A stretch of DNA of 49,450 bases from a bacterium (GTDB lineage Bacteria > Patescibacteriota > Minisyncoccia > 1-14-0-10-42-19), in contig JAUYHD010000031.1 of assembly GCA_030690215.1 (NCBI GenBank), positions 1 through 49,450 of the forward strand. The letters run 5' to 3'. A model generated the notes under the pieces. The model had not been told where the DNA came from, did not search any database, and saw only the letters and a list, made by a program, of their open reading frames with translations. The translations under genes and the position numbers were made by a program. Each line of letters begins with the position of its first letter. Within the stretch, counting starts at the first letter, position 1. This document shows positions 1,148 through 46,009 of the stretch, in pieces.

Positions 1148-1262
1148 CCCGTTAGAGATCGCGGACGCGCTCCACATAAATATATGACCCATAAAAGAAT
1201 TATTATTGATTATATACATAGGCGTATGATGCTGTTTGCGTCTGCGTCCTATCTCTAACGGG
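1148..1262 (+). repeat. CCCCGTT-family inverted-repeat leader; 3' arm abuts the ATG
   Basis: cccgttagagat (1148-1159) and atctctaacggg (1251-1262) are perfect 12-nt complements; ATG at 1263. Confidence 0.85.
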
Positions 1263-2378
1263 ATGAAAATATGCTTTTTGACGCATAATTTGAAACAGGA
1301 CAACGGCGCGGGCGTATTTTCGCATCGTCTTATCGTGGGGCTTAAAGATATGTTTGGTGTTGATGTTGTCGCGCTCACGACAGAAAAAAGCGGTGAATCG
1401 TATGAACTGCCGCTTTTGAATAAGAATTTTTTCCGCAATTTTTTTGCATTGCGTCGTATTATAAAAGACTGCGATGTTGTACATGCCCTCGATGCCTATC
1501 CCTACGGCGTTATGGCAACGCTTCTTTTGGTGGGGCTTCGTAAAAAATTTATTATTACCGCAATAGGAACGGGGGCATTCCTCCATTTATATAAGCCGTT
1601 GTATGCGTCTTTGCTCCGCTATGCCTACCGAAAAGCGGATAGAGTGACCGCGGTAAGCAATTTTTCTAAAGATGAAATTATTAAAAAGGTACAAGGGCTT
1701 TCTGTGCGTGTCATTACGCACGGCGTTGATTACAAAGAATGGGAGGCGGCACAGGGAAGCGCGGCTATACAGACGCGTATCCGGAGCATGAGGCCGTATA
1801 TAATAAGCGTTGGCGCCATGCGTACGCGGAAGGGCTATAATTTGAGCATTCGATCGTTTGCAAAAATAAAAAAACAATTTCCCGATCTGCAGTATGTGAT
1901 AGTGGCAAAAAAATACGGGGATTCTTTTTATTATAAAATACGCGCGCTTATTAAAAATCTTGCTCTGGAAGAGAGCGTGCATATTCTTGAGGATATAGAT
2001 ACGCGGGAGGATCTCGCGGAATTATATCGGCGTGCGGAATGTTTTTGCCTTCTTTCGCGTAGTATTGATCATGATGTTGAAGCATTCGGGCTCGTATTTT
2101 TGGAAGCGGCTGCCTGCGGCCTCCCCATTATCGGAACAACTGATGGAGGTGTGCCCGATGCGGCAAGATCGGGAGAAAATGCGATATTGATAGACATACA
2201 AGACACAGCGCCTTTTTATAGCGAAAACGAGGACCCGATGAGTAAAGCGGTAGCACATGTGCTTGGCGACCAAGCGTATGCCGAAAAAATGAAACACGCC
2301 TCGCTCACGTTCGCTCGCGCGTCGGATTGGGCGGGGAAAATGGCCGAATATGGAGCGCTATACAAAACGCTTATTTGA
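1263..2378 (+). CDS. GT4-family glycosyltransferase
   Basis: MKICFLTHNLKQDNGAGVFSHRL start and EAFGLVFLEAAACGLPIIGTTDGGVPD motif; the ORF-track start at 1236 would read through the IR arm. Confidence 0.85.
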   Translation: MKICFLTHNLKQDNGAGVFSHRLIVGLKDMFGVDVVALTTEKSGESYELPLLNKNFFRNFFALRRIIKDCDVVHALDAYPYGVMATLLLVGLRKKFIITAIGTGAFLHLYKPLYASLLRYAYRKADRVTAVSNFSKDEIIKKVQGLSVRVITHGVDYKEWEAAQGSAAIQTRIRSMRPYIISVGAMRTRKGYNLSIRSFAKIKKQFPDLQYVIVAKKYGDSFYYKIRALIKNLALEESVHILEDIDTREDLAELYRRAECFCLLSRSIDHDVEAFGLVFLEAAACGLPIIGTTDGGVPDAARSGENAILIDIQDTAPFYSENEDPMSKAVAHVLGDQAYAEKMKHASLTFARASDWAGKMAEYGALYKTLI

Positions 2379-2414
2379 TTTGCCTAAAGAAGAACCATCC
2401 TATACTATTTTTAT

Positions 2415-3431
2415 ATGAATACAGGCGCTAAAAAGGTTGCTCTCATAACAGGTATTACGGGACAGGACGGCTCATATCTTGCGGAATTACTGCTTGAAAA
2501 AGGATATGATGTCCATGGGTTAGTCCGTCGTTCAAGTATTATGAACATCGGACGCATAGAGCATGTCTACACCAACACCACCCACCCTACGGGGAGGATT
2601 TTTTTGCATTATGGCGATCTTGCGGATACCGCTTCGCTGGTACGGCTGTTGGTGAACATAAAACCTGACGAAGTGTATCATTTAGGAGCAATGAGCGATG
2701 TGCGGATCAGTTTTGATATTCCTGAATACACCGCAAATATTACGGGGCTCGGGACGCTTCGTATGCTTGAAGCAATGCGCCAAAGCGGGCTTGAGCATGT
2801 AAAATTTTATCAGGCATCCAGTTCCGAGATGTTCGGTAAAACATCGGAAGTGCCTCAAAAAGAAACATCTCCGTTTGTTCCCCAAAGTCCGTACGCGATT
2901 GCGAAAGTATTTGCCGATGCGATATGCAAAAATTACCGCAACTCATACAATATGTTTATTTGCAGCGGTATTTTGTTTAACCACGAATCTCCGAGGCGCG
3001 GAGAAAACTTTGTTACGCGTAAAATTACATTAGGGATAGCGAACATTTTGGCGGGAAAACAAAAAAAGATTTATTTAGGGAATTTGGATGCACAGCGTGA
3101 TTGGGGATATGCTCCCGAATATGCCGAGGCAATGTGGCGGATGCTCCAGCATCCCGAGCCGGATGACTATGTGGTGGCGACCGGCGAGACGCATTCGGTC
3201 CGCGAATTTATGGAAGAAGCGTTCCGCTTAGCGGGACTTAACTGGCGGGACCATGTTGAAATAAAGCCCGAACTTTATAGGCCGTCCGAAGTAGATATTC
3301 TTCAGGGTGATATTTCAAAGGTGCGCGCCAAACTTGGATGGGAGCCAAAAGTTACCTTTCAAGAGCTTGTGAGGATTTTACTTGAAGCGGATTGCAAAAC
3401 GGCAGGGGTATCGATTCTGAAGCAAGTATAA
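2415..3431 (+). CDS. gmd: GDP-mannose 4,6-dehydratase
   Basis: [61 protein letters not shown] are diagnostic. Confidence 0.95.
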
Positions 3432-3443
3432 CTGCGTATAAAA

Positions 3444-4691
3444 GTGAATAGTATATTTGGAAAATCAATTACCGCATGCCATATGTGCAGGGGTTCGCGC
3501 CTTGCGCTTGTTTTTGATTTGGGGCACCATCCGCATTCCGATGATTTTGTGGAGCCGGAACGGCTGAAAAGAGAGATGCATGTGTTTCCATTACGGCTGG
3601 TTTCTTGTAAAGATTGCGGTCTTTTGCAAATTGATTATCTGGTCAATCCCGACATTCTTTATAAAACAAATTATGTCTATGAGTCATCAGTAACGGCTAC
3701 GGGGCGCGCGCACTATGCGGATATGGCGCGCCATAGTGTGGAGCGTTTTCGTATTCAAAAAAATAATCTCGTGATTGATATCGGGAGCAATGTGGGCGTA
3801 TTGTTGCAGGGGTTTAAGGATGCAGGCATGCGAGTGCTTGGCATAGACCCTGCCGACATCCCTGCCAAAAAAGCAATCGCGGAGGGCATCCCAACTATTA
3901 TTGATTATTTTACAAAAGCTGTTGCGGAGGACATTGTCGCGAAACACGGAACCGCACGCATCATCACAGGAACAAATGTTTTTGCGCATCTTCATGACAT
4001 AGATAGCGCTGTAGAAGGAATGAAGCATATACTTGCCTCTGACGGCGTTATTGTCATTGAAGCGCCGTATGCGTTGCCACTCATAGAGCATCTTGAATAT
4101 GATACGATATACCACCAGCATGTCGGGTATCTTTCGGTAAAGCCCATGCAGGCATACTTCAAGCGTTTTGGTCTTGAGCTTTTTGATGTTATGCCCCAAG
4201 ATATTCATGGCGGGACAGTTCGCTATTATGTCGGGCATGTCGGCGCCCACCCTATTATTTCTTCTGTAGACGAGTATATAAAAAAAGAAGAAGCATTCGG
4301 ACTGTATGACACAGAGCGTCTCAAACGCTTTGCTGATGAAGTAAAAGCCCAGCGCATAGCGCTTATTGGTATGCTGCAGGATTTGAAGAGAAGCGGAAAA
4401 CGAATTGTTGCGATTTCAACGCCCGCAAAAGGGAATACTCTTCTGAATTATTGTAATATAGACGGGGCATATCTTGAGTACGCGACAGAAAAATCAGCGC
4501 TCAAGGTTGGGAAATACACCCCGGGCACCCTTCTTAAGATAGAGCCGGACGCAAAATTACTTTCCGACCAGCCGGATTACGCGTTGATTCTTGCCTGGAA
4601 CTTTGCGAAAGAAATTATGGCGAACAACGAAGAATATAAAAAGCGGGGAGGAAAATTTATTATTCCTATACCGAAGCCGCGTATCATATAA
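3444..4691 (+). CDS. SAM-dependent C-methyltransferase with N-terminal zinc-binding domain (sugar C-methyltransferase type)
   Basis: CHMCRGS...LVSCKDCGLLQ zinc motif, VIDIGSNVGVLLQGF SAM motif, C-terminal STPAKGNTLLNYC domain; GTG start. Confidence 0.85.
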   Translation: MNSIFGKSITACHMCRGSRLALVFDLGHHPHSDDFVEPERLKREMHVFPLRLVSCKDCGLLQIDYLVNPDILYKTNYVYESSVTATGRAHYADMARHSVERFRIQKNNLVIDIGSNVGVLLQGFKDAGMRVLGIDPADIPAKKAIAEGIPTIIDYFTKAVAEDIVAKHGTARIITGTNVFAHLHDIDSAVEGMKHILASDGVIVIEAPYALPLIEHLEYDTIYHQHVGYLSVKPMQAYFKRFGLELFDVMPQDIHGGTVRYYVGHVGAHPIISSVDEYIKKEEAFGLYDTERLKRFADEVKAQRIALIGMLQDLKRSGKRIVAISTPAKGNTLLNYCNIDGAYLEYATEKSALKVGKYTPGTLLKIEPDAKLLSDQPDYALILAWNFAKEIMANNEEYKKRGGKFIIPIPKPRII

Positions 4692-4778
4692 GAAATTAAA
4701 AAATCAAAAATCCCTGGCCGGGAAGGCAAAATGCAAAAATGTTTTATAATTTCAACTTTTAAATCAATTTTTTAATGA

Positions 4779-4856
4779 CCTAATTTTTAAAATTATTTAG
4801 AAATTAAAACATTGTGTCATTCACTTAAAATTAAAAATTTAAAATTTTGTGTTAGG
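4779..4856 (+). repeat. AT-rich imperfect inverted repeat leader (cctaatttttaaaatt / aaaattttgtgttagg)
   Basis: Arms complementary by eye; 3' arm ends about 4 nt before ATG 4860. Confidence 0.45.
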
Positions 4857-4859
4857 CAT

Positions 4860-5255
4860 ATGAAGAAAAAAGATAGCAAGGTTATTATTAAAAAGTTAAG
4901 GCCCGTATTCCGGGATACGCGCGGAGATATTTTTGATATTGTTGAGGATGAGATTCATCACATCGGCTTTATTACATTTCGAAAGGGAGCTGTGCGTGCC
5001 AACCATTATCACAAGCGCTCAACGCAATATACGTATGTGATCAAGGGTAAAATTGAATTGATGACGAAGGACGCGAAACATAAAAATGCGAAAGCAAAAA
5101 AAATAATTATGAGCGAGGGGGTGCTTGCGGTGATACCCCCGTTTATTATTCACGCATATCGTGCCCTTACTCCCGCAAGCATCATAGATTGCACAACCGA
5201 GTCCCGTAACGCGGATGGGTATGAAAAAGATACAATTCGGGTGGTGCCAGAATAA
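4860..5255 (+). CDS. WxcM/FdtA-like or RmlC-like cupin domain protein (sugar isomerase/epimerase-like)
   Basis: RANHYHKRSTQYTYVIKGKIEL cupin motif; DTRGDIFDI. Confidence 0.7.
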   Translation: MKKKDSKVIIKKLRPVFRDTRGDIFDIVEDEIHHIGFITFRKGAVRANHYHKRSTQYTYVIKGKIELMTKDAKHKNAKAKKIIMSEGVLAVIPPFIIHAYRALTPASIIDCTTESRNADGYEKDTIRVVPE

Positions 5256-5258
5256 GAT

Positions 5259-6095
5259 ATGATGCAGTCGCTTCTTGGTGAGCTATACTATCGTAAAGCA
5301 AAATATTATAAAGCCATTCTCAAAAAGTGGGCGCTCTATTCGCTGTTCGGACGTTCTCGTAAAAATCGCGACACATCGTTTGTGGAAAAAGAATACGGTG
5401 CAGTGTGGTCAAGAGATCGTTTTGCAATTGAGCGCGATAAGCCGCAGATACAGGAGTTGCATGGACAGGCAGTACGATGGCGCTCAATTGATAGGAAACG
5501 ATTTACGATGTCGCATATAAGCAATACCATACGGAGTTTGGACGGGGTAAAGAGTGTTTTGGAGATGGGGAGCGGTGGGGGCATTAATATACTTGCGCTT
5601 GCGGTATTGCATCCCGACATTTCAGAATGGCACGGCGTTGAGCTTACGCCCGAAGGAGTGAGCGTATCGCGAAACATACTCGTATCTCCGCCCTACGACT
5701 ATTTAGAATATGTTACGGGCTTTTCCCGGGATGAAATTTCAAAACGCCTTTCGCGTGCGCGTATCACATTTCATAAAGGAGATATGACACGGCTTCCTTT
5801 TGAGCGCGATTCCATGGATTGTGTGTTTTCATGCCAGGCAATAGAACAGCTTCCGCGCGCATACCCTGAGGCATTTTGCGAAGCAAAGCGGGTGACACGC
5901 GCGCACGCTCTTTTTTTGGAGGAGTTTCGGGAAGCGCAAGCGAACATATTTGAACGGATGCATCTTAAAAATCGCGATTATTTTCGCGCATCTTTTCACG
6001 AAGCCGAAAAAGCAGGATTTACAATAATTTCGTTTGAGCCGTTTCCATTAAAACAGCTTTATTACAGTTTAGGTTTTCTTGTCTGTAAATCGTAA
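5259..6095 (+). CDS. class I SAM-dependent methyltransferase
   Basis: VLEMGSGGGINILAL and DSMDCVFSCQAIEQLP motifs. Confidence 0.8.
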   Translation: MMQSLLGELYYRKAKYYKAILKKWALYSLFGRSRKNRDTSFVEKEYGAVWSRDRFAIERDKPQIQELHGQAVRWRSIDRKRFTMSHISNTIRSLDGVKSVLEMGSGGGINILALAVLHPDISEWHGVELTPEGVSVSRNILVSPPYDYLEYVTGFSRDEISKRLSRARITFHKGDMTRLPFERDSMDCVFSCQAIEQLPRAYPEAFCEAKRVTRAHALFLEEFREAQANIFERMHLKNRDYFRASFHEAEKAGFTIISFEPFPLKQLYYSLGFLVCKS

Positions 6096-6110
6096 CACGC
6101 GCAGGTATGC

Positions 6111-6842
6111 TCAAAGATGACGTTGGAAGGCGATAGCGCCGTCTCTGATTTCTATTTCGTCACCGTTTGAAAACGCGCGTTCTTCTACGACGCGCGCGAT
6201 AATGTGCGCGACTGCTTCGGGGGATTGCTGCCGGGAAGCATCTTTCTCTCCGAAAAGTTTTCTGCGCATAGCGGTATTGATGCCGCCCGGCGCGACAGTA
6301 ATACAGGAAACAGGGGAGTCGGAAAGCTGTTTTGCAACTGACTGCATTAATCCATGGACTGCGAATTTTGTTGCGGAGTATATGGGGACATGCGTGTTGC
6401 CGTGGATACCGGCACCCGATCCGATTGTTATAAGAATTCCTTCTTTTTGTTTTTTCATGGCGGGAATTGCGGCGCGTAAAAAATAAAAAACCGAATCAAC
6501 GTTCGTACGCATGTATGTTGTATATTCGGCATCAGTCGTCTCTTCAATCAATTTTTTTTCGCTTATCCACCCCGCGTTATTTATCAGAACATCAATTGTG
6601 GTGTGGCGTGCCAGTGTTTTTTTAATGAATTGCTCCACGTCATCTTTGTCTGTGACATCAACGCGCGCGTAGTCGCATGCCTCTCCGCTTTTTTGTATAT
6701 GCCCGCACACCTGTTTCAGTTCAGTTTCTTCAAGCGCGCAGAGTACGACACATGCATGTTTTTTCGCAAACGCATAGGCGAGGGACTCTCCAAGTCCTCG
6801 GGATCCGCCTGTTATGACTACGATTTTGTTTTTGAGATTCAT
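6111..6842 (-). CDS. SDR family oxidoreductase
   Basis: MNLKNKIVVITGGSRGLGESLAYAFA, NNAG, YSATK; start trimmed to 6842. Confidence 0.85.
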   Translation of the reverse strand: MNLKNKIVVITGGSRGLGESLAYAFAKKHACVVLCALEETELKQVCGHIQKSGEACDYARVDVTDKDDVEQFIKKTLARHTTIDVLINNAGWISEKKLIEETTDAEYTTYMRTNVDSVFYFLRAAIPAMKKQKEGILITIGSGAGIHGNTHVPIYSATKFAVHGLMQSVAKQLSDSPVSCITVAPGGINTAMRRKLFGEKDASRQQSPEAVAHIIARVVEERAFSNGDEIEIRDGAIAFQRHL

Positions 6843-6923
6843 AGAATCTTTTATTATCTGCCCGCAACTACCCATGGCGAGCTTCGCTTGCCATGGAGGT
6901 GGATGCGGTATGCAGATAATAAA

Positions 6924-7021
6924 CCCAGCACATAAGTTTAATAGCACGTCGCTGTATGAATGCAGTATCCATCGAACAAAAGCCGGTTAAAAAATGACGT
7001 TGTTTAAACTTATGTGCTGGG
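6924..7021. repeat. 18-bp perfect inverted repeat cccagcacataagtttaa / ttaaacttatgtgctggg
   Basis: Arms 6924-6941 and 7004-7021 exactly complementary; related hairpin at 13236-13261. Confidence 0.9.
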
Positions 7022-7116
7022 TGGAATAACCGCACAACCGCAATCAGCGCGGATACCGCACTGCTTGCGGTGCGGTTATTCATTTATATCATAGAATGAG
7101 CGAGAGAGAAAATGAA

Positions 7117-7140
7117 AAGCGGACATTGTGGTGTCCGCTT
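7117..7140 (-). terminator. hairpin/terminator downstream of the HD gene
   Basis: aagcggacattgtggtgtccgctt with A/T-rich flank. Confidence 0.65.
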
Positions 7141-7162
7141 GCGTGTAAGATGATGTATAGAT

Positions 7163-7876: not shown

Positions 7877-7906
7877 TTCAAAATAGTATATAGAATATTT
7901 TACAAA

Positions 7907-7935
7907 TTGTCAATTCTTTGTATTCTTGATACAGT
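7907..7935 (+). promoter_or_regulatory. promoter TTGTCA-N17-TACAGT, leaderless geometry
   Basis: -10 ends 7 nt before ATG 7943. Confidence 0.55.
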
Positions 7936-7942
7936 GAAGATT

Positions 7943-9166: not shown

Positions 9167-9170
9167 CTCA

Positions 9171-9310: not shown

Positions 9311-9322
9311 AGGTAAGTGTAT

Positions 9323-14980: not shown

Positions 14981-14988
14981 TATACATT

Positions 14989-15076
14989 CCTACGAATATA
15001 CGAACATGCGCGAAAGTACGAAAGGGTTAATTTTTATTTCGTATTTTCGTAGGAGTTCGTAATTTCGTAGGAAATA
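14989..15076 (+). repeat. CCTACGAA/TTCGTAGG-family imperfect palindrome ('empty' copy), 3' arm ending at start codon
   Basis: cctacgaatatacgaacatgcgcgaaagtacgaaa ... tttcgtattttcgtaggagttcgtaatttcgtaggaaatat. Confidence 0.85.
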
Positions 15077-15077: not shown

Positions 15078-15902
15078 ATGAATATGTTTTCACTCAAAAA
15101 TAAGACAGTTATATTAACTGGCTCCACGGGCTATCTCGGCAAATATTTTGCGCGTGCGCTCGCTGATTTTGGAGCGCGTGTGTTATTGCTCGGACGCAAT
15201 CAGGAAAAATTAGATTCGTTGTTAGGCGAATTACAAAAGGAATATCCCGAAAGCCAGTGCGCGGTGTATTGTTTTGACCAATATGATCATGAAGAGGCGC
15301 GCAGACAATATGAGCGTATGATTGCGGAGGAAAAAAAGATAGACATTCTTATTAATAACGCATTTGATTTTAGTAAGAATACCGGATTTAACGATCCATC
15401 AGGACGATGGGAAAATGTTACATACGAAAAAGCGGTTACTATGTTTGATTCGGCTTTTTACTGGGCATTTCAGGCGATTCAAATAATTGGGCCGGTAATG
15501 AAACAACAAGGAAGCGGTTCCATTATTAATATAGGAACATTTCATGCCGATCATCCGCCAATGAAAGGGATCTATGAAGGAACGACAATTTTTAATCCGA
15601 TTATATATGGTCCGCAAAAAGCCGCGCTCAAACTGTTAACAAAGCGGATGGCGGTTGAATTGGCTCCGGAGGTTCGCGTAAATATGATTTCTCCCGGGCC
15701 GGTTCCTAATACGGCAGGCAAAAGCGCAAACGCGATTACAAAAGATGATCCGGTTCTTTCGCGCCTTTCAAAGCGAATTCTTTTTGATCGTATGGGGCAT
15801 CCGACCGATCTTACGGGTGCTGTGATTTATTTCGCGTCAGACGCGTCAAGTTGGACTACCGGTGTTAACTTTGTCATTGATGGGGGATACGATGTTGCGT
15901 AG
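15078..15902 (+). CDS. SDR family oxidoreductase
   Basis: KTVILTGSTGYLGKYFARALADFGARVLLLGR; SSWTTGVNFVIDGGYDV. Confidence 0.88.
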   Translation: MNMFSLKNKTVILTGSTGYLGKYFARALADFGARVLLLGRNQEKLDSLLGELQKEYPESQCAVYCFDQYDHEEARRQYERMIAEEKKIDILINNAFDFSKNTGFNDPSGRWENVTYEKAVTMFDSAFYWAFQAIQIIGPVMKQQGSGSIINIGTFHADHPPMKGIYEGTTIFNPIIYGPQKAALKLLTKRMAVELAPEVRVNMISPGPVPNTAGKSANAITKDDPVLSRLSKRILFDRMGHPTDLTGAVIYFASDASSWTTGVNFVIDGGYDVA

Positions 15903-16680: not shown

Positions 16681-16777
16681 TCAACCCCGTTAGATGAGTA
16701 AGCCTTGCGACACTCTATCTAACGGGGTCAACCCCGTTATGAGCAAGCTTTGCGAAGCTCTGTCTAATGGGGTCAAT
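16681..16777. repeat. Two tandem compact CCCCGTT-family palindromes
   Basis: accccgttagat(16684-16695)/atctaacggggt(16717-16728) and accccgttat(16731)/gtctaatggggt(16762-16773). Confidence 0.85.
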
Positions 16778-18019: not shown

Positions 18020-18063
18020 ACCCCGTTAGATGAGCAATCCTTGTGACACTCTATCTAATGGGG
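18020..18063. repeat. Compact CCCCGTT-family palindrome
   Basis: accccgttagatgagcaatccttgtgacactctatctaatgggg; near-identical to 16684-16728. Confidence 0.85.
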
Positions 18064-23474: not shown

Positions 23475-23502
23475 TTGACCTAATTTTTTTCTTTGATATA
23501 AT
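23475..23502 (+). promoter_or_regulatory. promoter TTGACC-N16-TATAAT
   Basis: Near-consensus; predicted start about 23509, 3-4 nt before the 5' arm of the hairpin leader. Confidence 0.7.
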
Positions 23503-23512
23503 AAAACATATG

Positions 23513-23655
23513 CCCCGTATGGCAAAATCGAATGTTTTATCTATTCATCGTACGGGGTAAAACAAAGAATAATTATAAAAGCATATTTGAAGATAATAAT
23601 CGAAGCATCGTTTGTGATAAAACGAGTACGATGGTTCGATTTTTCCTAACGGGGT
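23513..23655 (+). repeat. CCCCGT-family inverted-repeat leader of the TA operon
   Basis: ccccgtatggcaaaatcgaatgttttatc (23513-23541) vs gataaaacgagtacgatggttcgatttttcctaacgggg (23616-23654); ATG at 23656. Confidence 0.8.
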
Positions 23656-23841
23656 ATGGCTACACTATTAGAAGAAAAGAAAATAAATAGATTGGTAAAA
23701 AAAGCCGTTTTAGAGACATTGCAGGATCTTTTTGGTGATCCTGATTTCGGTTTAGAACTTCATTATTGGGCGAAAAAACGTTTATCTAAAAGATATAAGA
23801 AAGGGATTTCTTTAGATACGCTTCGGAAAAAATATTTATAA
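23656..23841 (+). CDS. small putative antitoxin
   Basis: 61-aa ORF directly upstream of a RelE/ParE-like toxin. Confidence 0.6.
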   Translation: MATLLEEKKINRLVKKAVLETLQDLFGDPDFGLELHYWAKKRLSKRYKKGISLDTLRKKYL

Positions 23842-23856: not shown

Positions 23857-24129
23857 ATGTCGGATTATTCTTTATTATTTACGCCGGATGCGGAGAATGA
23901 TTTCAGAAAACTTAACCTTGTTGTACGGAAACGAATATATAAGAAGTTGAAATGGTTATTGGAGCATCTCGATCCTTTAAGAGCATTACCCTTAACCGGC
24001 CCCTGGCGGGGATTTTTTAAATTGAGAATCGGGGAGTGGAGAATTATTTATAACATGGATTATAGAAATTCTCTTATTGTTGTATATGTTATAGGAAAAC
24101 GAGATAAGATATATAAATATAAAAAATAA
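23857..24129 (+). CDS. RelE/ParE-family toxin
   Basis: YSLLFTPDAENDFRKLNLVVRKRIYKKLKWL...GFFKLRIGEWRIIYNMD...VYVIGKRDKIYK. Confidence 0.85.
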   Translation: MSDYSLLFTPDAENDFRKLNLVVRKRIYKKLKWLLEHLDPLRALPLTGPWRGFFKLRIGEWRIIYNMDYRNSLIVVYVIGKRDKIYKYKK

Positions 24130-25200: not shown

Positions 25201-25229
25201 TTGTCAAATAAAGGACTTTTTGTTATAGT
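25201..25229 (+). promoter_or_regulatory. promoter TTGTCA-N17-TATAGT
   Basis: Predicted start about 25236, immediately before the IR 5' arm at 25239. Confidence 0.65.
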
Positions 25230-25238
25230 GGCGCTATG

Positions 25239-25369
25239 CTCCGTAGTGAAAATTCGAATATTCCGCTAAAAGCGGAATAAAATGAATAGCGGGGATGAAT
25301 AATAGGATGTTATTATTGTGTGATTTCTATGGTTAAACATTATTACAATTCGAATTTCTACTACGGGGT
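25239..25369 (+). repeat. CCCCGT-family inverted-repeat leader
   Basis: ctccgtagtgaaaattcgaat (25239-25259) vs attcgaatttctactacgggg (25348-25368), 3 mismatches in 21; ATG at 25370. Confidence 0.88.
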
Positions 25370-26116
25370 ATGATAGCGGTTATTATCCAGGCGCGAATGG
25401 GATCCACCCGGCTCCCGGGGAAGATTTTAAAAGAGCTTGCGGGCAAGCCGATGCTTTGGCATGTAGTAAATCGCGCGAAGCACGCAAAAAAAGTTGATAA
25501 AGTTATTGTCGCCACCACCATAGAAAAAGAAGACGACATTGTAGAAGAATTGGCAAAAAAAGAAGGATGGGATTATTTTCGGGGTTCTGCCGATAATGTA
25601 CTTGAACGATATTATAAAGCTGCTAAACAAGCGGGCGCAGATGTTATTGTTCGCATCACAAGCGATTGCCCTTTAATTGATCCGGAAATAATAGACGGGT
25701 GCGTAGAGGCATTTCGGAATCAAAAATGCGATTATATCAGCAACACATCGCTTGGAGATGTGCGGGGCTTGCCGCGCGGAATAGATGATATAGAAATTTT
25801 TTCTATTCACGCGTTAGAGAAAGCGCGCAATGAAGCAAAAGAAATGTACGGAAAAGAACATGTTACGCCATATATATGGGAAAATAAGAGAAATATTTTC
25901 ACAATTGGAAAGGGCCCCCGCCTAAAAGATATATACGCCAGAAATTACCGATTGACAGTGGATTATCCCGAAGATTTTGAAGTGATTAAGGCGGTTTATA
26001 ATAGTTTTTCGTCTCATTCGCAAATATTTTTAACGGAGCACATTATATCCTTTTTGGATTCTCGCCCAGATATTGTCGTTATGAACGCGCATTGCGTCCA
26101 AAAACCCGTTACATAA
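25370..26116 (+). CDS. SpsF/PseF-like cytidylyltransferase
   Basis: AVIIQARMGSTRLPGKILKELAGKPMLWHVVNRA; RITSDCPLIDPEIID. Confidence 0.85.
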   Translation: MIAVIIQARMGSTRLPGKILKELAGKPMLWHVVNRAKHAKKVDKVIVATTIEKEDDIVEELAKKEGWDYFRGSADNVLERYYKAAKQAGADVIVRITSDCPLIDPEIIDGCVEAFRNQKCDYISNTSLGDVRGLPRGIDDIEIFSIHALEKARNEAKEMYGKEHVTPYIWENKRNIFTIGKGPRLKDIYARNYRLTVDYPEDFEVIKAVYNSFSSHSQIFLTEHIISFLDSRPDIVVMNAHCVQKPVT

Positions 26117-36732: not shown

Positions 36733-36799
36733 TTTTGTTTCGGAGCCGCATCGCTCTTATAAATGTGGCTCAAGTCCAAAAAACCTTTAAAAATACCAT

Positions 36800-38315: not shown

Positions 38316-38333
38316 GTATATATCCAATATGAG

Positions 38334-38411
38334 CCCCGCTAGAAATTGTTATTTTGTTTTAAGTGCCACAACCAATCATTATCTTATATGAATGCGCAAA
38401 CTTCTAACGGG
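38334..38411 (+). repeat. CCCCGTT-family inverted-repeat leader; 3' arm abuts a GTG
   Basis: ccccgctagaaa / ttctaacgggg then GTG at 38412. Confidence 0.75.
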
Positions 38412-39383
38412 GTGAACATACTTATTGCAAGCGCGGGAAGGGAGGTTCCGTTAATAAAAGAATTTAAAAAAGCCCTCAAGTCTTCTGGGGGGAAGATTAT
38501 TGCGTTTGATATTAATCCGTTATCGGCGGGATTTCAGTTTAGTGATATTTCATACATTGTGCCTCGTTATAAAGAAGCATCGTTTATTCCTTCGGTGCTG
38601 GCAATTTGTAAAAAGCATCGAATTTCGCTTCTTATACCAACGAAAGATGCCGAGTTGCCTATTTTTGCGAAAGCGAGAAAACGTTTTGAAAAAATCGGCG
38701 TCCGGATTATGGTCGCAAGCCTAAAAACAATAAATATATGCTGGGATAAATCAAAATTTATTGATTTTTGCATATCGCATGGGTTCTCTGCCCCAAAGAC
38801 ATATGATAGAAGAAATAAAAAAACGAATTACCGATTCCCACTTTTTATAAATAACCGTTTCGGTTTAGGGAGTAGGCATGCATACAAAATACATAATCGC
38901 AATGAGCTTAATTTCTTTTTGAAATATGTTCCTACTCCTCTAGTGCAGGAATATGTTGATTGGAAGGAATATACAATTGATCTTTTCGCGGATTTTAATG
39001 GCCGTATTATTTCAGTTGTTCCGAGGGAGCGTATATCGATATTTGGGGGGGAGTCTTTTGTTGGCAAGACATATAAAAATACAACATTAATACGCGGGGT
39101 TATAAAGCTTGCGGAGGCTCTTCATCTTATCGGCCACAACACGATACAGTGTTTTTTTGATGGTAAAAATATAAAATTTATAGAAGTAAATCCCCGTTAT
39201 GGTGGCGGTTCACCCTTAAGTTTTGCTTCAGGCGTTTCTACCCCTGCGTATCTTGTAAGATTAGTCCGAGGACAAAAAGTTCCCAGTAGAATCGGTGCAT
39301 TTAAAGATAATCTAGTTATGCTTCGCTATACGCAAGACATATACAAGGATGCGAAATCCATTACATGGAAAAAAATAAAATAA
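38412..39383 (+). CDS. ATP-grasp domain protein (CarB-like)
   Basis: (V)NILIASAGREVPLIKEFKKAL, FIEVNPRYGGGSPLSFASG; preferred GTG start gives a canonical N-terminus; upstream ATG 38388 is the alternative. Confidence 0.8.
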   Translation: MNILIASAGREVPLIKEFKKALKSSGGKIIAFDINPLSAGFQFSDISYIVPRYKEASFIPSVLAICKKHRISLLIPTKDAELPIFAKARKRFEKIGVRIMVASLKTINICWDKSKFIDFCISHGFSAPKTYDRRNKKTNYRFPLFINNRFGLGSRHAYKIHNRNELNFFLKYVPTPLVQEYVDWKEYTIDLFADFNGRIISVVPRERISIFGGESFVGKTYKNTTLIRGVIKLAEALHLIGHNTIQCFFDGKNIKFIEVNPRYGGGSPLSFASGVSTPAYLVRLVRGQKVPSRIGAFKDNLVMLRYTQDIYKDAKSITWKKIK

Positions 39384-40045: not shown

Positions 40046-40749
40046 GGCGAAATATAAAAAGCAAACGAGAAAGAGGGGTATATATCATCGCAGGGTCACG
40101 GCCATGGAATGAGGCGGTATTTAAAGAAAAAATATCAAAATACCCCGGGAGATGGCATTTTATTTCTCGCAAAGAGGATCTAACGCTCAAATATGTTCAG
40201 CGTATTCGTCCCCGATATATTTTTTTCTTGCATTGGTCGTGGTTCATTCCGCCCGAAATATATGAATCGCATGAATGTATTGTTTTTCATATGACTGACC
40301 TGCCGTTTGGGCGGGGCGGTAGTCCTTTGCAGAATCTTCTTGTGCGTGGAGTTTATAAGACAAAAATATCCGCTGTCCGTGTGGTAGAAAAGCTTGATAC
40401 GGGTCCGGTGTATTCAAAAAAGCCATTAGATTTAAAAGAGGGTCGCGCAGAAGATTTATATAAAAAAGCAAGCGCAATGGCATCTGGCATGATCAAAGAA
40501 GTTATTACCCGCCATCCAAAACCGTATTCGCAAAAAGGGAAAATCGTTGTATTTAAAAGACGAAAGCCGGAAGAAAGTAAAATCCCGTCTGGTTTGACGG
40601 ACCGCGGGTTATATGATTTTATAAGAATGCTTGATGCGGACGGATATCCGCGCGCATTTGTAGAATCAGATGATTATACGATTGAATTTTCCAGGGCCAT
40701 CCTTACCGAAAATGGCGTAAGCGCGGAAGCGGTTTTTATAAAAAAATAG
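40042..40749 (+). CDS. formyltransferase-family protein
   Basis: CIVFHMTDLPFGRGGSPLQNLLVRG; KLDTGPVYSKKPLDL; LYDFIRMLDADGYPRAFVE. Confidence 0.75.
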   Translation: MRRNIKSKRERGVYIIAGSRPWNEAVFKEKISKYPGRWHFISRKEDLTLKYVQRIRPRYIFFLHWSWFIPPEIYESHECIVFHMTDLPFGRGGSPLQNLLVRGVYKTKISAVRVVEKLDTGPVYSKKPLDLKEGRAEDLYKKASAMASGMIKEVITRHPKPYSQKGKIVVFKRRKPEESKIPSGLTDRGLYDFIRMLDADGYPRAFVESDDYTIEFSRAILTENGVSAEAVFIKK

Positions 40750-40882
40750 ACCAAAATAAAAAAATAAAGAATTGCCGCGTTCCTAAAATACGTTCGTGCG
40801 CTCGCATGCGTTCGAGGGGGTAGGCGGGCTTTGAGCGCGCTGAAAGCGTTTGAATTAAATTATTCTCGATTCTAATAATTCT

Positions 40883-41935
40883 ATGAATATTGGGGGAAGA
40901 AAAATTAGCTCCGGCGAACCGTGTTTTGTTATTGCGGAGATGTCCGGTAACCACAACCAGAGCTTTGATCGGGCGGTTGAAATCATAAAAGCTGTTGCTG
41001 ATGCAGGCGCAGATGCTGTTAAGTTGCAGACATATACCGCAGATACAATGACTATTGATTCTGATAAACCCTGGTTTCGTGTAGGAGAAGGAGATAAGCC
41101 GGATTCTTGGAAAGGAAAAACACTTTATGAGTTGTATAAGATTGCTTATACTCCATGGGATTGGCAGCCGAAATTAAAGAAAATTGCAGAAGAATTGGGG
41201 CTGATATTTTTTTCTACGCCATTTGATGCAAGTGCTGTTGATTTTTTGGAAGGGATGGACGTGCCCTGTTATAAGGTTGCCTCTTTTGAAGTTGTTGATA
41301 TCCCGCTTCTTAAAAAAATAGCGCGTACGGGCAAGCCGGTCATTCTATCAAGCGGACCGTCATCTTTGGAAGATATTGAGCTTGCGTTGACTACGCTTCG
41401 AGAAAATGGAGCGCGTGATATTGTGCTTTTGCATTGCATAAGCGCATATCCTGCAAAGCCCGAAAATATGCGTCTGCAAACGATTGAGGATTTGCGGAAG
41501 CGTTTCAATGTTGAGGTTGGTCTTTCTGATCATTCAATGGGAATTGAAATCCCGATTGCCGCGCGTGTGCTGGGTGCGTGTGCCATTGAGAAGCATGTAA
41601 CGCTTAAGCGCGCAGAAGGAGGCGTTGACTCCGATTTTTCTTTAGAACCGCAGGAATTAAAAGAGCTTGTGCGCACAATCCGCAATGTTGAGAAAGCAAT
41701 GGGAGAGCCGAGTTATGATTCGTGGAGCCCCCAGGAATTAGAAGAAAAAAAATCTCGCCGTTCGCTTTTTGCGGTTGAGAATATAAAAAAAGGAGAAATA
41801 TTTACTGAACGAAATATCCGTTCGATTCGCCCGGGAGCAGGCATTCATCCAAAATTTTATGAAGAGGTTCTTGGCAAAAAAGCAAAACAAAACATTGAAA
41901 GGGGGACACCGCTTTCGCGGGATTTAGTTGAGTGA
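40883..41935 (+). CDS. pseI: pseudaminic acid synthase (NeuB family with SAF domain)
   Basis: CFVIAEMSGNHNQSFDRAVEIIKAVADAGADAVKLQTYTADTMTID; ILSSGPSSLEDI; GLSDHSMGIEIPIAARVLGACAIEKHVTL; C-terminal SAF domain. Confidence 0.93.
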   Translation: MNIGGRKISSGEPCFVIAEMSGNHNQSFDRAVEIIKAVADAGADAVKLQTYTADTMTIDSDKPWFRVGEGDKPDSWKGKTLYELYKIAYTPWDWQPKLKKIAEELGLIFFSTPFDASAVDFLEGMDVPCYKVASFEVVDIPLLKKIARTGKPVILSSGPSSLEDIELALTTLRENGARDIVLLHCISAYPAKPENMRLQTIEDLRKRFNVEVGLSDHSMGIEIPIAARVLGACAIEKHVTLKRAEGGVDSDFSLEPQELKELVRTIRNVEKAMGEPSYDSWSPQELEEKKSRRSLFAVENIKKGEIFTERNIRSIRPGAGIHPKFYEEVLGKKAKQNIERGTPLSRDLVE

Positions 41936-41944
41936 GAAAAAATT

Positions 41945-41972
41945 AAAACCGTTCTTTATAAGAGCGGTTTTT
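41945..41972 (+). terminator. terminator after pseI
   Basis: aaaaccgttctttataagagcggttttt. Confidence 0.85.
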
Positions 41973-41973
41973 A

Positions 41974-42180
41974 TTACGCAAATTTTTCGAAATGGATGCA
42001 TTCTGCGTCCACGCTTTTTTTTGCGAGATATGAATTGATATCTTGCACAAAGTGCTGGCCTCCGCAAAGATAAAAATCCTCCTTTTTTTCATAAACTGCG
42101 GAGTGCAAGGTGTAGTATCTCTGGCGATATGGTAGGGAAAATTGGTATGCTCTGCGTGAAGCGTTTCCGGTTCTTTTTTT
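41974..42180 (-). pseudogene. duplicated, decayed 3' end of the FNR-like oxidoreductase gene
   Basis: 41974-42080 nearly identical to 42919-43026 including the stop codon; similarity fades beyond about 42085. Confidence 0.85.
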
Positions 42181-42200
42181 GGAAAGTTGAAAGTTCGATG

Positions 42201-42228
42201 TTGTAAATTTTAATGAACTTGTTATAAT
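42201..42228 (+). promoter_or_regulatory. promoter TTGTAA-N16-TATAAT
   Basis: -10 ends 11 nt before ATG 42240. Confidence 0.6.
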
Positions 42229-42239
42229 AATAATAATAT

Positions 42240-42461
42240 ATGGCTATTTCAACAAAAACGAAGATGGTAGAAAAGCTTAAGAGGGAAGTAGAGCTTCTCC
42301 GTTCTTTTGTTATTGGTAAAGCAGGGGAAGATTCTGAAGGAGAATATAATCCAGATTTCATAAAGAGCATACTCAAGGCGTCAGAAGAAGATCCGAAATA
42401 TGAGTTTAATGATGCCGAGTCTTTCTTAAAACACATACGCGGTAAAGAGCGGCATGATTAA
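42240..42461 (+). CDS. putative RelB-type antitoxin
   Basis: 73-aa ORF overlapping the RelE-like toxin start. Confidence 0.6.
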   Translation: MAISTKTKMVEKLKREVELLRSFVIGKAGEDSEGEYNPDFIKSILKASEEDPKYEFNDAESFLKHIRGKERHD

Positions 42462-42717
42462 GATTTATTACAGCAATCACTTTAGGAAGCGCGCCAAACG
42501 ACTTAACGAAAAACAACAAGCTAAACTTGCGCAGTTTGTTGTTTTGTTAAAAGGAAATCCGTTCAATCTCCAGCTCCACACGAAAGCCCTATCTGGAAAG
42601 CTTGCTGGTATTTATTCAGTTCGTATTACGAGAGAGTTTCGGTTGCTTTTTAAATTTTTTTCTCCCGACGAGGTTGTTCTTATTGATATCGGCAATCGAA
42701 AGGATATTTATCGATAG
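42454..42717 (+). CDS. RelE/YafQ-type toxin
   Basis: IKIYYSNHFRKRAKRLNEKQQAKLAQFVVLLKGNPFNLQLHTKALSGKLAGIYSVRITREFRLLFKF...VLIDIGNRKDIYR. Confidence 0.88.
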   Translation: MIKIYYSNHFRKRAKRLNEKQQAKLAQFVVLLKGNPFNLQLHTKALSGKLAGIYSVRITREFRLLFKFFSPDEVVLIDIGNRKDIYR

Positions 42718-42722
42718 CGCTG

Positions 42723-42876
42723 TCAACCCCGTTAGAAATCTTGCAGTTGTGTTTAAGGGTGCCTCAAAAAATAGAAAGTAGACATTTTTTACCAAATTGT
42801 TCTAAAAAATATTAAACACTCGGTGTTTAATAAAACCTGTAATCAAATTTTTCCGTCCGGGCTCTCTAACGGGGTC
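42723..42876. repeat. CCCCGTT-family long inverted repeat in a convergent intergenic region
   Basis: tcaaccccgttaga ... tctaacggggtca; inner hairpin attaaacactcggtgtttaat. Confidence 0.8.
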
Positions 42877-42918
42877 AATAAGACGTCATTACATGTCTCA
42901 AAAATATTCTGCTTTTAA

Positions 42919-43587
42919 TTACGCAAACTTTTCGAAATGGATGCGCTCTGCATCCACGCTTTTTTTTGCGAGATATGAATTGATATCTTGCACAAAGTGC
43001 TGGCCCCCGCAAAGATAAAAGTCCTTATCTTTATATTCATTCAATAGTGAGAAGAAAGATGCCGTATCTTCAATAACAGTGAATGAGAAATTGGCGTGTT
43101 CTTTTTTAAGCATATCAAGCTCTTCTTTTAAAATCATTCCTTCTTGAGGCGGGACGATAAAGGTAAGTTCTAGGGGGAGCAAAAAATTTTTTGTTTTAAG
43201 CAGGTCGTATATTATGGAACGGAAAGGGGCAATGCCGGTGCTTGAAGCGACAAGATGGATGGATCGGTCAGTGTGTTTAATATGAAATGCTCCGTCCGGT
43301 CCGGATACTTCTATTGAGGTTCCGATAGTGGCATTCTCAAAGAATGTAGAAGCAAGTCCTCCGGGGATTAGTTTTACCAATAATTGAAATGAGTTATTTT
43401 CTGACGGCGGAGAGGCGATAGAAAAAGGCCTGTCGAATATTTCGTTACCCGAAGGAATCTTGAGAGTAATATATTGCCCCGCTTCAAATTGAATGGGTGA
43501 ATTAAGCATGAATGTGATGAGATGTATGAGAGGCGCGAGCTCTTTTTTTTCTGTGAGCGTTGCGGTTATGCGGTTAAAATTTGCCAT
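42919..43587 (-). CDS. ferredoxin-NADP-reductase-like FAD/NAD-binding oxidoreductase
   Basis: FEAGQYITLKIPSG, RPFSIASPPSE, ASSTGIAPFRSIIYDLL, DFYLCGGQHFVQDINSYL. Confidence 0.88.
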   Translation of the reverse strand: MANFNRITATLTEKKELAPLIHLITFMLNSPIQFEAGQYITLKIPSGNEIFDRPFSIASPPSENNSFQLLVKLIPGGLASTFFENATIGTSIEVSGPDGAFHIKHTDRSIHLVASSTGIAPFRSIIYDLLKTKNFLLPLELTFIVPPQEGMILKEELDMLKKEHANFSFTVIEDTASFFSLLNEYKDKDFYLCGGQHFVQDINSYLAKKSVDAERIHFEKFA

Positions 43588-43630
43588 ATTATAGTATTGT
43601 AAACAATAAAAAGAATATTTCAATTCTCTA

Positions 43631-43659
43631 TTGAAATTTAAGGGATTCCTGTTTAAATA
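43631..43659 (+). promoter_or_regulatory. promoter TTGAAA-N17-TAAATA, leaderless geometry
   Basis: -10 ends 5 nt before ATG 43665. Confidence 0.5.
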
Positions 43660-43664
43660 GGAAT

Positions 43665-44420
43665 ATGAAAACTTTTATTGTGCCAAAAGGTTTTATACAG
43701 GGAAGGTTTTTGCCTACGGTTGTGTATGTGCGGGAAACTGTTGATTTTCATACGCGTCTTTGTTTATTTAATTATTTTTCAGAGCTTTTTCCTGACATAA
43801 AGACCGGGGCAAAAGCCTACCTTTGGTTTTTTAATTCAAAGGGCGCGCTTGTTGCAAGCCGGGAGATTCCGCTTGCGTATCAAGGGCAATTGCAGTTTGA
43901 TCTTTCTCTATTGGGCGTGCAATTTGAGGGTACTGCAGGCGTGAGCATTGTTCCTGACACCGAACCGTCCGCGGCACATAATCGTTTGGTCGGCACCGGA
44001 TATTATGTATATTACTATGACGATGAGCATCATAGTGATGCATCTCATGAATGGGAGCCGATGCAATTTTTAAAAAGCACGAGCATTCCTTGGCTTTGCG
44101 TGGTGCGTCCGCTTTTGTTTCCCCAGACCGAAATAATTGTGATGAATGCATATTACGGCGAAGATGCAGGCGAGGGTAGCGCGCATTGGCACATTGCTCT
44201 GCGGAATGAGCAAGGATCAATTCTTGCAGAAAAAGAAATGCCGTCACTTTTGCCGAAAGCGTCCACGCGTTTTTTGCTAAAAGACGCATTCCCGGATATA
44301 GAAAAAATTGCGCAACACGAAAAACATATCGGCGTTGAAGTAAAAGGGACGAATATCCAGGGTCCGTTTACATTTGTGCGCGCCGAGAACGGCGATTTTA
44401 ATATTCACCATTTCTGTTAG
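43665..44420 (+). CDS. hypothetical protein, beta-rich appearance
   Basis: 251-aa uninterrupted ORF; no family recognised. Confidence 0.65.
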   Translation: MKTFIVPKGFIQGRFLPTVVYVRETVDFHTRLCLFNYFSELFPDIKTGAKAYLWFFNSKGALVASREIPLAYQGQLQFDLSLLGVQFEGTAGVSIVPDTEPSAAHNRLVGTGYYVYYYDDEHHSDASHEWEPMQFLKSTSIPWLCVVRPLLFPQTEIIVMNAYYGEDAGEGSAHWHIALRNEQGSILAEKEMPSLLPKASTRFLLKDAFPDIEKIAQHEKHIGVEVKGTNIQGPFTFVRAENGDFNIHHFC

Positions 44421-44422
44421 GA

Positions 44423-44577
44423 CCTACGAAAGTACGAAAAGTTTACGAAAATACGAAAAACATTATGTTCTACGAATATACGAATAGGCCCGAAAATACG
44501 AAAAACATAAAGCCTACGAACGTACGAAATAACGCGAAAGTACGAAAAAACTTAATTTCTATTTCGTAGGAAATATT
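44423..44577 (+). repeat. CCTACGAA/TTCGTAGG-family block with about three tandem 5'-arm units of about 43 nt
   Basis: cctacgaaagtacgaaaag..., ctacgaatatacgaataggcccgaaaatacgaaaaacat, cctacgaacgtacgaaataacgcgaaagtacgaaaa ... tttcgtagg. Confidence 0.88.
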
Positions 44578-44590
44578 TATAGTAAATAGC

Positions 44591-44986
44591 ATGAAACCGA
44601 AATTACAGCGTAATGATATAGTTTATCCGGAATTATCTTACAAGATAAATGGTATTTTATTTGATGTATTTAAGGAGATGGGCTTTGGGTATCAAGAAAA
44701 ATATTATGGGAAAGCTTTAGCGGTTAGATTGACGGAAGAGGGATTAAAATTTAAAGAGCAAGTGTCAATGCCAATACAGTATCATGCGGAGGATATTGGA
44801 AGATATATTTTTGATTTTCTTATAGAGGATCGTATTATTTTGGAGTTAAAGAAGGGGGATTATTTTAGGAAGGAGAATATGGAACAAGTTATCGGATATT
44901 TAAAGGCTTCAGGATTGCGGCTAGGTCTTCTTGCGAATTTTACCCGAAATGGGGTAAGGATAAGAAGAATTCTAAATATTAATTAA
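44591..44986 (+). CDS. GxxExxY-family protein
   Basis: PELSYKINGILFDVFKEMGFGYQEKYYGKALAVRLTEEGLKFKEQ; FDFLIEDRIILELKKG; motif GYQEKYY. Confidence 0.88.
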   Translation: MKPKLQRNDIVYPELSYKINGILFDVFKEMGFGYQEKYYGKALAVRLTEEGLKFKEQVSMPIQYHAEDIGRYIFDFLIEDRIILELKKGDYFRKENMEQVIGYLKASGLRLGLLANFTRNGVRIRRILNIN

Positions 44987-44988
44987 AG

Positions 44989-45085
44989 CCTACGAACATA
45001 CGAACAGGCACGAAAATACGAAAGAAAAATTGTAGTTTTCGTAATTTCGTACTTTCGTAGGTGTTCGTAATTTCGTAGAAATATT
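44989..45085 (+). repeat. CCTACGAA/TTCGTAGG-family imperfect palindrome directly upstream of the next ATG
   Basis: cctacgaacatacgaacaggcacgaaaatacgaaa ... ttttcgtaatttcgtactttcgtaggtgttcgtaatttcgtag. Confidence 0.88.
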
Positions 45086-46009
45086 ATGTTGCCAAGCAAT
45101 GCATGGAAAAATAGAGAGCCCCGATTCGGGTTTCCGACATTTAAGGGAATAGATAATCTTGTTTCTTTTTCGGTGCGTCCGGATTTTGTGCCGGTAGATT
45201 TTGTAAAGATGAAGCGTGAGGGGTTTGGCGCGCTTATGCATGGACCGCGCGCGCTTGGGGGATTTTTGAAGGTGAATGTTCCGCTTTTGCTCTTTTCGCG
45301 CGATCAAAATCTTCGTTTTAAGCTTATTGTTACGTCTCGTAACGGCGAGTATTGCGGAACAAAAAAAATTGCAGGCGTCTATCCCCCGGGCGGTTCCATT
45401 GATGTGAATGTAACAGAGGTCATTAAAGACATGGGTTTGCCGGACGACGACTATATGGCAATTTTGGTGATGTCGAATGGCAGACATGACGGTGTGCGTT
45501 CTTCTCCCGGGAGTTATTCTATGACATACTCGGGAAAGAATTTTTACAGCACGTATCGGACCGGAGGGTTTATACGGACATTGAATGATCCGCGCAAAAA
45601 GAGTCATTTTGGGTTTCGGGGTATTAACCCAACCGTGATTGCAAACAAAGATACGTTGAGCAGTCTTTTTTTGATAAACCATTCTTCATGGCCGGGGTAT
45701 AACGATGTTGCAAACCCGCGTACCGTATTGTTGCGGGCGGACGGCAAAACGCGTGAAGCGCGGTTTGGAGAAATACATCCATTTGGAGGAGTTGAAAAAA
45801 GTATGGAGGAGTTGTTCGGAAAAGACGTCCATGAGTTTTTAGCGCCATTCGGCGGGAAGGGGACCACAATAACAACATGCCCGGGAGTAACGCTTGCGAG
45901 CATCCATATTACACGGGCCCGTGACGGTTCTTCATTTTCCATTGAGCATTCGCGTCCAACCCACACATATTTACTGGCAGGAGTAGCAGGAACAATATAT
46001 AAAAAATAA
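45086..46009 (+). CDS. hypothetical protein, beta-rich appearance
   Basis: 307-aa uninterrupted ORF; no family recognised. Confidence 0.65.
   Translation: MLPSNAWKNREPRFGFPTFKGIDNLVSFSVRPDFVPVDFVKMKREGFGALMHGPRALGGFLKVNVPLLLFSRDQNLRFKLIVTSRNGEYCGTKKIAGVYPPGGSIDVNVTEVIKDMGLPDDDYMAILVMSNGRHDGVRSSPGSYSMTYSGKNFYSTYRTGGFIRTLNDPRKKSHFGFRGINPTVIANKDTLSSLFLINHSSWPGYNDVANPRTVLLRADGKTREARFGEIHPFGGVEKSMEELFGKDVHEFLAPFGGKGTTITTCPGVTLASIHITRARDGSSFSIEHSRPTHTYLLAGVAGTIYKK

Follow-up and report, generated by a model that had tools for sequence, protein, structure and literature searches.

The window analysed here is the whole of contig C37 (49,450 nt), one of 38 contigs of the 1.02-Mb genome of a bacterium of the Patescibacteriota (class Minisyncoccia), referred to as G000. 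It carries six inverted repeats that end shortly before gene starts, which an initial annotation had described as hairpin leaders, and all six were found at, or within a few bases of, the positions given there. Four of them (1147-1263, 23513-23654, 25239-25368 and 38334-38412) are, by their sequence features, insertions of mobile elements bounded by terminal inverted repeats (TIRs) and not built-in regulators. The TIR ends read CCCCGTTAG...CTAACGGGG and variants, with 4-bp target-site duplications (TSDs), TATG or TGAA, that include part of the start codon; in the four window elements, ends of the CTAACGGG(G/A) type or CTACGGGG touch the start codon. The 3' ends of these CTAACGGG-type repeats lie 0-1 nt ahead of ATG, ATG, ATG and GTG, and the reason for this adjacency is that the duplicated target is the start codon itself. 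In type 1 the target is TATG, giving TATG/CCCCG...CGGGG/TATG, where the second TATG copy holds the ATG. In type 2 the target is TGAA (TGRN) within ATGAA, giving A-TGAA/TCCCG...CGGGA/TGAA, where the last base of the element, A, rebuilds the ATG. The four elements and their surroundings are as follows:

1147..1263, plus strand: type-2 start-codon element, short, encoding no protein; TIR TCCCGTTAGAGAT...ATCTCTAACGGGA
1143-1146 and 1264-1267: TSD of this element, TGAA (4/4); the terminal A and the TG of the TSD rebuild the ATG at 1263
1263..2378, plus strand: glycosyltransferase gene (GT4/GT1; Pfam Glycos_transf_1, 1e-30), its ATG rebuilt by the element
23475..23512, plus strand: promoter at the left end of the next element; TTGACC 23475-23480, 16 nt, TATAAT 23497-23502, 7 nt, ATG 23510-23512
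23513..23654, plus strand: type-1 start-codon element, 142 nt, short form; CCCCGTATGGC...TTCCTAACGGGG
23509-23512 and 23655-23658: TSD of this element, TATG
23656..23841, plus strand: 61-aa open reading frame (ORF) at what is probably the antitoxin position, immediately ahead of a ParE-like toxin gene; no Pfam match
23857-24129: ParE-like toxin gene (Pfam ParE_toxin, 3e-9)
25201..25238, plus strand: promoter at the left end of the next element; TTGTCA 25201-25206, 17 nt, TATAGT 25224-25229, 6 nt, ATG 25236-25238
25239..25368, plus strand: start-codon element of another TIR type, 130 nt; CTCCGTAGTGAAAATTCGAAT...ATTCGAATTTCTACTACGGGG
25235-25238 and 25369-25372: TSD of this element, TATG
25370..26116, plus strand: cytidylyltransferase gene (Pfam CTP_transf_3, 5e-38), its ATG within the right TSD
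38334..38412, plus strand: start-codon element, 79 nt; CCCCGCTAGAAAT...ACTTCTAACGGGG
38330-38333 and 38413-38416: flanks of this element, TGAG and TGAA (3/4, one mismatch); the terminal G of the element and TG form the GTG start at 38412
38412..39383, plus strand: PylC-like ATP-grasp gene (Pfam)

The start at 1263 was confirmed by an element-free orthologue that begins at the same residue (MKICFLAHNLK), and the ATG at 23510-23512 is a retained copy of the start codon. TIRs similar to those of the 25239 element (GTAGTGAAA.TTCGA) flank a GIY-YIG gene in another genome, G009.

The elements are repeated, duplicate their targets and are absent from orthologous sites. About 679 kb of the 1.02 Mb of G000 was read as stretches. 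The 23513-23654 sequence gave 32 BLAST matches, about 30 genome copies, some of them tandem, nested or at contig ends. Pairing of TIR ends, which covered 439 kb, yielded 57 candidate pairs with lengths mostly of 137-150 or 39-48 nt, and a perfect 4-bp TSD was present in 29 of the 57 (a count somewhat inflated by tandem copies, which share flanks), compared with 5% when the flanks of different elements were compared. Nested insertions gave clean cases: an uninterrupted sibling reading GATACAG-CAAG-GAAGACG became CAAG/CCCCGTTTG...TTACGGGG/CAAG, and a second nested insertion had a TACG TSD and an empty sibling. In a congener with about 80% nucleotide identity to G000 (G002), the rpsA site was empty and read TACAATATTTTTC^ATGCAATCAAAT (junction ATTTTTC^ATGCAATC), against TACAATATTTTTC-ATG-(144 nt plus T)-ATGCAATCAAAT in G000; ftsA, ndh, cdaA and rpsE of the congener were also without the element. 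As separate observations, a virB4-like gene of G002 (C5:67459, L118) has a different element of the same class (TCCCGCTAGAAAT...TTTCTAACGGGATATG) at the start codon where G000 has a GIY-YIG copy, and a gene start in the congener G001 (C9:1433, L084) reads TATAAT-AGAGGC-ATG-CCTAACGGGGT-ATG, with only the right end of the element, which is possibly a deletion scar.

Full-length copies (276-299 nt) had as their sole ORF a UPF0213-like GIY-YIG nuclease of about 90-98 aa that fills the element to its ends; such copies were found in G000, G209, G328 and further genomes, with at least three TIR types. The G000 copies on contigs C8, C18 and C5 (about 299 nt) have the same ends as the 142-nt short form and an ORF of the form MPRMA(K/T)SN-GIY-YIG, which begins at the ATG of the left TSD and stops at a TAA within the right arm (CC TAA CGGGG TATG). 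In full-length copies the stop codon is either part of the right arm (TAACGGGGTATG) or shares bases with the rebuilt start (ATGA), and some of the ORFs use as their start the ATG that the host gene had before insertion and that remains at the left end. The 285-nt elements of G209 and G328 carried a different GIY-YIG ORF with the same TAA as its stop; the 204-nt elements of G209 share their ends with the 285-nt copy and look like deletion derivatives, as do the short copies in general (50-150 nt) beside the full-length ones. Type-2 copies with GIY-YIG occurred in at least nine genomes, and in one of them (L219) the ORF is 95 codons long, starting at the ATG that the host gene originally used and ending with a TGA that overlaps the rebuilt ATG. 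The proteins matched Pfam GIY-YIG (PF01541) at 1.5e-16 and UPF0213 structures (PDB relative 1zg2), with Y14, Y25, G27, R35, H39, E71 and N85 invariant in the alignment.

Among the 17 GIY-YIG genes of G000, one was of the length expected for UvrC and several others also lay between inverted repeats. The combination of TIR and TSD was rejected as a property of GIY-YIG genes in general, as many lack both, and an upstream ORF coupled to the rebuilt start was rejected as a conserved feature of short copies, as most short upstream ORFs stop far upstream. GIY-YIG genes were also seen at RNA loci of G000. A 16S rRNA gene of about 2.24 kb (C6:51641-53876; L044:11841-14076) holds a GIY-YIG ORF (about C6:52437-52646) in its variable V3 region, with no intron family match reported for this insertion, and three further genes (C17:7864-8073, C27:13681-13896 and C30:35968-36168) lie beside or within duplicated tRNA-like sequences (e.g. 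tRNA-Tyr, L073:8219-8304).

Gene starts were hit far more often than other available sites. Genes hit in G000 comprise rpsE, rpsA, rpsF, ftsA-like, cdaA, tsaE, ndh-like, virB4-like, DsbD/CcdA-type, RNaseH-like (PF04308), DUF4446 and MFS genes, the cytidylyltransferase gene at 25370 and the small ORF before the ParE-like toxin gene; rpsA, ndh, virB4 and MFS, like the class-wide gene names below (rplP, rplO etc.), were named by sequence recognition. Independent TATG insertions lay at starts in 14 of 18 cases, compared with 25% of noncoding TATG (p=4e-6). The left ends lay 4-8 nt past a -10-like hexamer in 10 of 15 cases (baseline 7%, noncoding TATG, gaps 5-8), and -10 boxes in G000 peaked exactly 6 nt before ATG (5.7% vs roughly 1.5%), so that many targets look leaderless. 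Leaderless genes as the sole target were rejected, because in the class-wide set the insertions at rpsP and rplO follow an upstream ORF by 4-6 nt, so that start codons in general are hit. No target motif was found beyond 4-5 bp and AT-rich flanks.

Class-wide searches covered 384 genomes of this large class of ultra-small bacteria, with reversed patterns as control. The pattern TCTAACGGGGTATG was found at 24 places in 12 of the 384 genomes (reversed pattern 0), with a perfect TSD in 17, and 23 of the 24 were at gene starts, among them rplP, rplO, rpsP, rpsH, secF, murA, dnaX, gatC, rpmE and others. The type-2 pattern TCTCTAACGGGATG, of the family of the 1147 element, was found in 63 of 384 genomes (reversed pattern, two matches); the base before the left TSD was A in 21 of 26 loci (one per genome), so that the former ATGAA survives ahead of the element. 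Both patterns held ATG and hence overstated the start-codon fraction, and an ATG-free TIR-pair search (CCCGTTAGAGA-N80-110-TCTCTAACGGG) was added for that reason. It matched in 38 of 384 genomes (control 0); with one element per genome (n=30), 24 coincided exactly with the start of an ORF that was 60 aa or longer, compared with 2% of random positions, and 22 of the 30 had perfect TSDs. These results indicate that start-codon insertion is a property of the family and not an artefact of the search patterns. Viral contigs gave three chance matches, none with an element.

Closely related elements that duplicate TTGA sit at promoters instead of start codons. A -10 hexamer lay at 15-18 nt for 13 of 18 outward junctions, compared with 14% of noncoding TTGA (p=3e-8). 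Within the window, the following elements belong to the same TIR class:

16685..16727, minus strand: 43-nt element; TSD TCAA/TCAA; the outer TTGA is the -35 (TTGATA) of a minus-strand promoter
18021..18063, minus strand: 43-nt element; flanks TCAA/CCAA; the outer TTGACA is a -35-like hexamer
42727..42874, minus strand: 148-nt element; TSD TCAA/TCAA (TTGACA on the minus strand)

Elsewhere in G000, TTGA elements lie exactly at -35 hexamers at C6:54242, C18:40999, C15:81146, C30:1540, C27:10493, C9:11956 and other places, each -35-sited subfamily in one fixed orientation, and the rpsE promoter has one element at its -35 and another at the start codon.

The initial annotation had regarded the repeats as recurrent and non-random, and as a shared translational gate. 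Recurrence was borne out: near-perfect 14-nt arms lay 0-10 nt before the predicted start in 2.2% of 592 G000 genes, compared with 0.17% in resampled upstream sequence and 0.24% at internal ATGs, and this is an undercount, as the test misses the commonest family, whose arms carry conserved mismatches. The same test found palindromes downstream of stop codons at 5%, which are presumably terminators; inverted repeats per se are therefore not start-specific, whereas these element families are, with a strong excess at start codons both in G000 and class-wide. Across 18 copies the arms showed good pairing and covariation (position 14 A-T or C-G; position 18 G-C or A-T; positions 1 and 2 C-G or T-A), with conserved mismatches at positions 7, 8 and 12. 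Every TIR-type leader was predicted to pair its 3' arm, usually with part of the start codon, and to have its stem close at the start codon.

Such covariation and folds, together with the conserved or essential genes involved, would be expected if these hairpins had evolved as leaders that mask the initiation region and so gate translation, and if selection for regulation kept them. We consider this origin highly unlikely, given the TSDs, the empty orthologous sites, the nested and tandem copies and the orthologues without the element. The genes share no common function, the lengths range from 50 to 285 nt, and closely related TIR elements also lie upstream of -35 boxes, where no leader forms. 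TIRs that are recognised as hairpins would be expected to show arm pairing just as much, and the covariation and predicted fold appear to fit an RNA gate no better than hairpin recognition by a mobiliser. The G-rich element noted in the 3' arm is formally SD-like (Shine-Dalgarno), but its GGGG is 1-5 nt away from the start codon and SD-like motifs in G000 peak at a spacing of 5-9, so that action as a normal SD is unlikely. Judged from the arm covariation and the predicted folds, an effect of the elements on translation is nevertheless possible or even likely. A riboswitch or known leader RNA was rejected, as no Rfam family matched at gathering score within the window.

TIRs with a 4-bp TSD are typical of DDE elements, and many copies are short and have no gene, as would be the case for ordinary miniature inverted-repeat transposable elements (MITEs) moved in trans by an unlinked DDE transposase, the GIY-YIG being a passenger or a homing gene that jumped in. 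This is unlikely, since the GIY-YIG is the sole ORF of full-length copies in several families with at least three TIR types, filling the element; among the full-length copies found, none had another gene, and one orientation per subfamily relative to the target is unusual for DDE insertion at a 4-bp site. A repetitive extragenic palindrome (REP) system with its REP-associated tyrosine transposase (RAYT, of the IS200/IS605 Y1 type) is likewise palindromic, dispersed and multi-copy with a single small enzyme, and G000 has two RAYT-like Y1 genes (C15:74967-75215 and C11:6475-6759) adjoining REP-like palindromes. Each, however, is flanked by copies of its own, different palindrome (TGCAAGACCCGGTCTTGCA; AAACACCGAGTGTTT), on which ground we rejected this origin as extremely improbable, and the elements have TSDs, which Y1 chemistry does not make. 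The start-codon excess could also reflect survivorship only, with insertion at any TATG or TGAA and only start-codon copies tolerated in compact genomes, which would be compatible with mobile elements of the kind proposed here. The lack of a longer target motif and the short intergenic space speak for it; yet starts make up 25% of noncoding TATG against 78-96% of insertions, and insertion should be no less well tolerated at other noncoding sites, which makes survivorship as the sole cause doubtful.

The observations to be explained are the elements, their TSDs, the empty sites, the excess at start codons and the GIY-YIG content. We consider it very likely that the hairpin leaders with CTAACGGG(G/A) arms are very small mobile-element insertions, with TIRs and a 4-bp TSD, at gene start codons, with the GIY-YIG nuclease as their putative mobiliser. 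The nuclease would mobilise full-length and internally deleted copies by recognising their folded or TIR ends and cutting start-codon sites. Insertion would leave the gene with a start codon while the original promoter and start region stay at the left end, and the inserted element would become a folded leader of 50-150 nt or an upstream gene of ~280 nt. Full-length copies would use the promoter and ATG of the host gene and return translation via a stop next to or overlapping the rebuilt start; ribosomes would initiate on the downstream gene at the rebuilt AUG, and in full-length copies this initiation would be coupled to the upstream ORF. With short copies, whose upstream ORFs mostly stop early, essential genes may be translated by initiation at the AUG behind the stem, by reinitiation or from an internal promoter. 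With less assurance, we lean towards a new superfamily of minimal DNA transposons of ~280 bp, with one GIY-YIG gene, TIRs, a 4-bp TSD and start-codon targeting, which takes over the host promoter and ATG for its nuclease, hands translation back via a stop in or overlapping its right end, and has a large cloud of deletion derivatives that form folded leaders on essential genes across the class.

Several points weigh against this interpretation. Transposition, cleavage and any effect on translation are proposed from sequence, and gene starts were taken from ORFs and not from transcripts. The GIY-YIG could be a passenger: no GIY-YIG partner was detected for some short families in G000, and around many GIY-YIG genes of the class no TIR is detectable; GIY-YIG enzymes are not known to make 4-bp TSDs. 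The left flank of family A is CATG, not TATG, in 3 of about 12 copies, through either a 3-bp TSD or drift. Some element-free starts may reflect loss and not absence, and the one orientation that each subfamily keeps relative to its target is unexplained.

The other two of the six repeats, whose 3' ends lie about 4-5 nt ahead of ATG, had been taken to do the same thing as the four elements. They are instead TACGAA/TTCGTA arrays without a TSD, near starts in only some places, and this family is unrelated to the TIR-type elements:

14987..15073, plus strand: TACGAA/TTCGTA palindromic array, not a TIR/TSD element, preceding the ATG at 15078; its AGGA may serve as SD for that ATG
44989..45080, plus strand: TACGAA/TTCGTA array directly after a PD-(D/E)XK (PDDEXK_3) gene, preceding the ATG at 45086

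In the region 44446-45084 the PDDEXK_3 gene (44591-44986) lies between TACGAA/TTCGTA arrays and perhaps forms with them another nuclease-linked repeat system; similar arrays lie ahead of doxX-like (C30) and atpF-like (C8) starts. The window also contains 120-nt direct repeats (41968-42087 and 42913-43032; 92% identical, 945 nt apart), one of them within an FAD/NAD oxidoreductase ORF.

Mobile elements normally damage the genes they enter; those described here insert at the triplet where a gene is most sensitive, and yet the gene stays usable. The targets are often essential genes (ribosomal proteins, FtsA, DnaX, MurA, CTP synthase). If the GIY-YIG nuclease is the mobiliser, it would be a new enzyme class in DNA transposition and the element the smallest self-contained DNA transposon known to us. 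The elements would explain many small GIY-YIG genes and short repeats in Patescibacteria, and may explain unclassified GIY-YIG insertions in rRNA genes of these bacteria. They also offer natural pairs with and without the element for the study of leaderless and leadered mRNA translation, and they warn against reading hairpin leaders as riboregulators before checking for TSDs.

IS1380-like and other DDE insertion sequences have TIRs starting with CC and TSDs of 4-5 bp, and the elements here share the CC start and a 4-bp TSD; however, no full-length copy found here (276-299 nt) has a DDE gene, and ~280 nt is far below insertion-sequence size. The byp translational-bypass hairpins and the Rickettsia palindromic elements are mobile hairpins that enter genes and leave them usable, but they lie inside coding frames, whereas the elements here have a TSD and occupy the start codon. 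Bacterial MITEs (Correia/NEMIS, RUP, BOX, ERIC/RU, MITEAba12) are short, non-coding and intergenic, have TIRs and a target duplication, lie near gene 5' ends and can alter expression (review, PMC10969869; on pneumococcal repeats, PMC3049150; on enterobacterial RU elements, PMC2759123). The short copies here are alike in TIRs, TSD and short non-coding form with ends shared with a longer copy; they differ in that the start codon itself is the target and is rebuilt by insertion, and in that GIY-YIG, with no known transposase, is what the full-length relatives encode. The MITE review PMC10969869 uses neither the term "GIY-YIG" nor the term "start codon". Homing enzymes do not recognise their own mobile DNA (PMC1564403). 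Homing endonuclease genes share with these elements an endonuclease ORF in a conserved site, but have one cognate allele and no terminal repeats or TSD, in contrast to the many unrelated targets, TIRs, TSDs and deletion derivatives found here. GIY-YIG insertions in rRNA genes of the candidate phyla radiation (CPR) resemble neither intron type and look outside homing (PMC11270868); they are likewise small GIY-YIG ORFs in conserved genes of CPR bacteria. A search of the open-access literature, with subscription papers and preprints outside its scope, returned no description of start-codon-targeting or TIR-bounded GIY-YIG elements. The full-length copies fit the definitions of neither DDE elements, Y1 elements nor homing endonucleases, and the fact that a small GIY-YIG gene is all they carry suggests a kind of transposon not described before.

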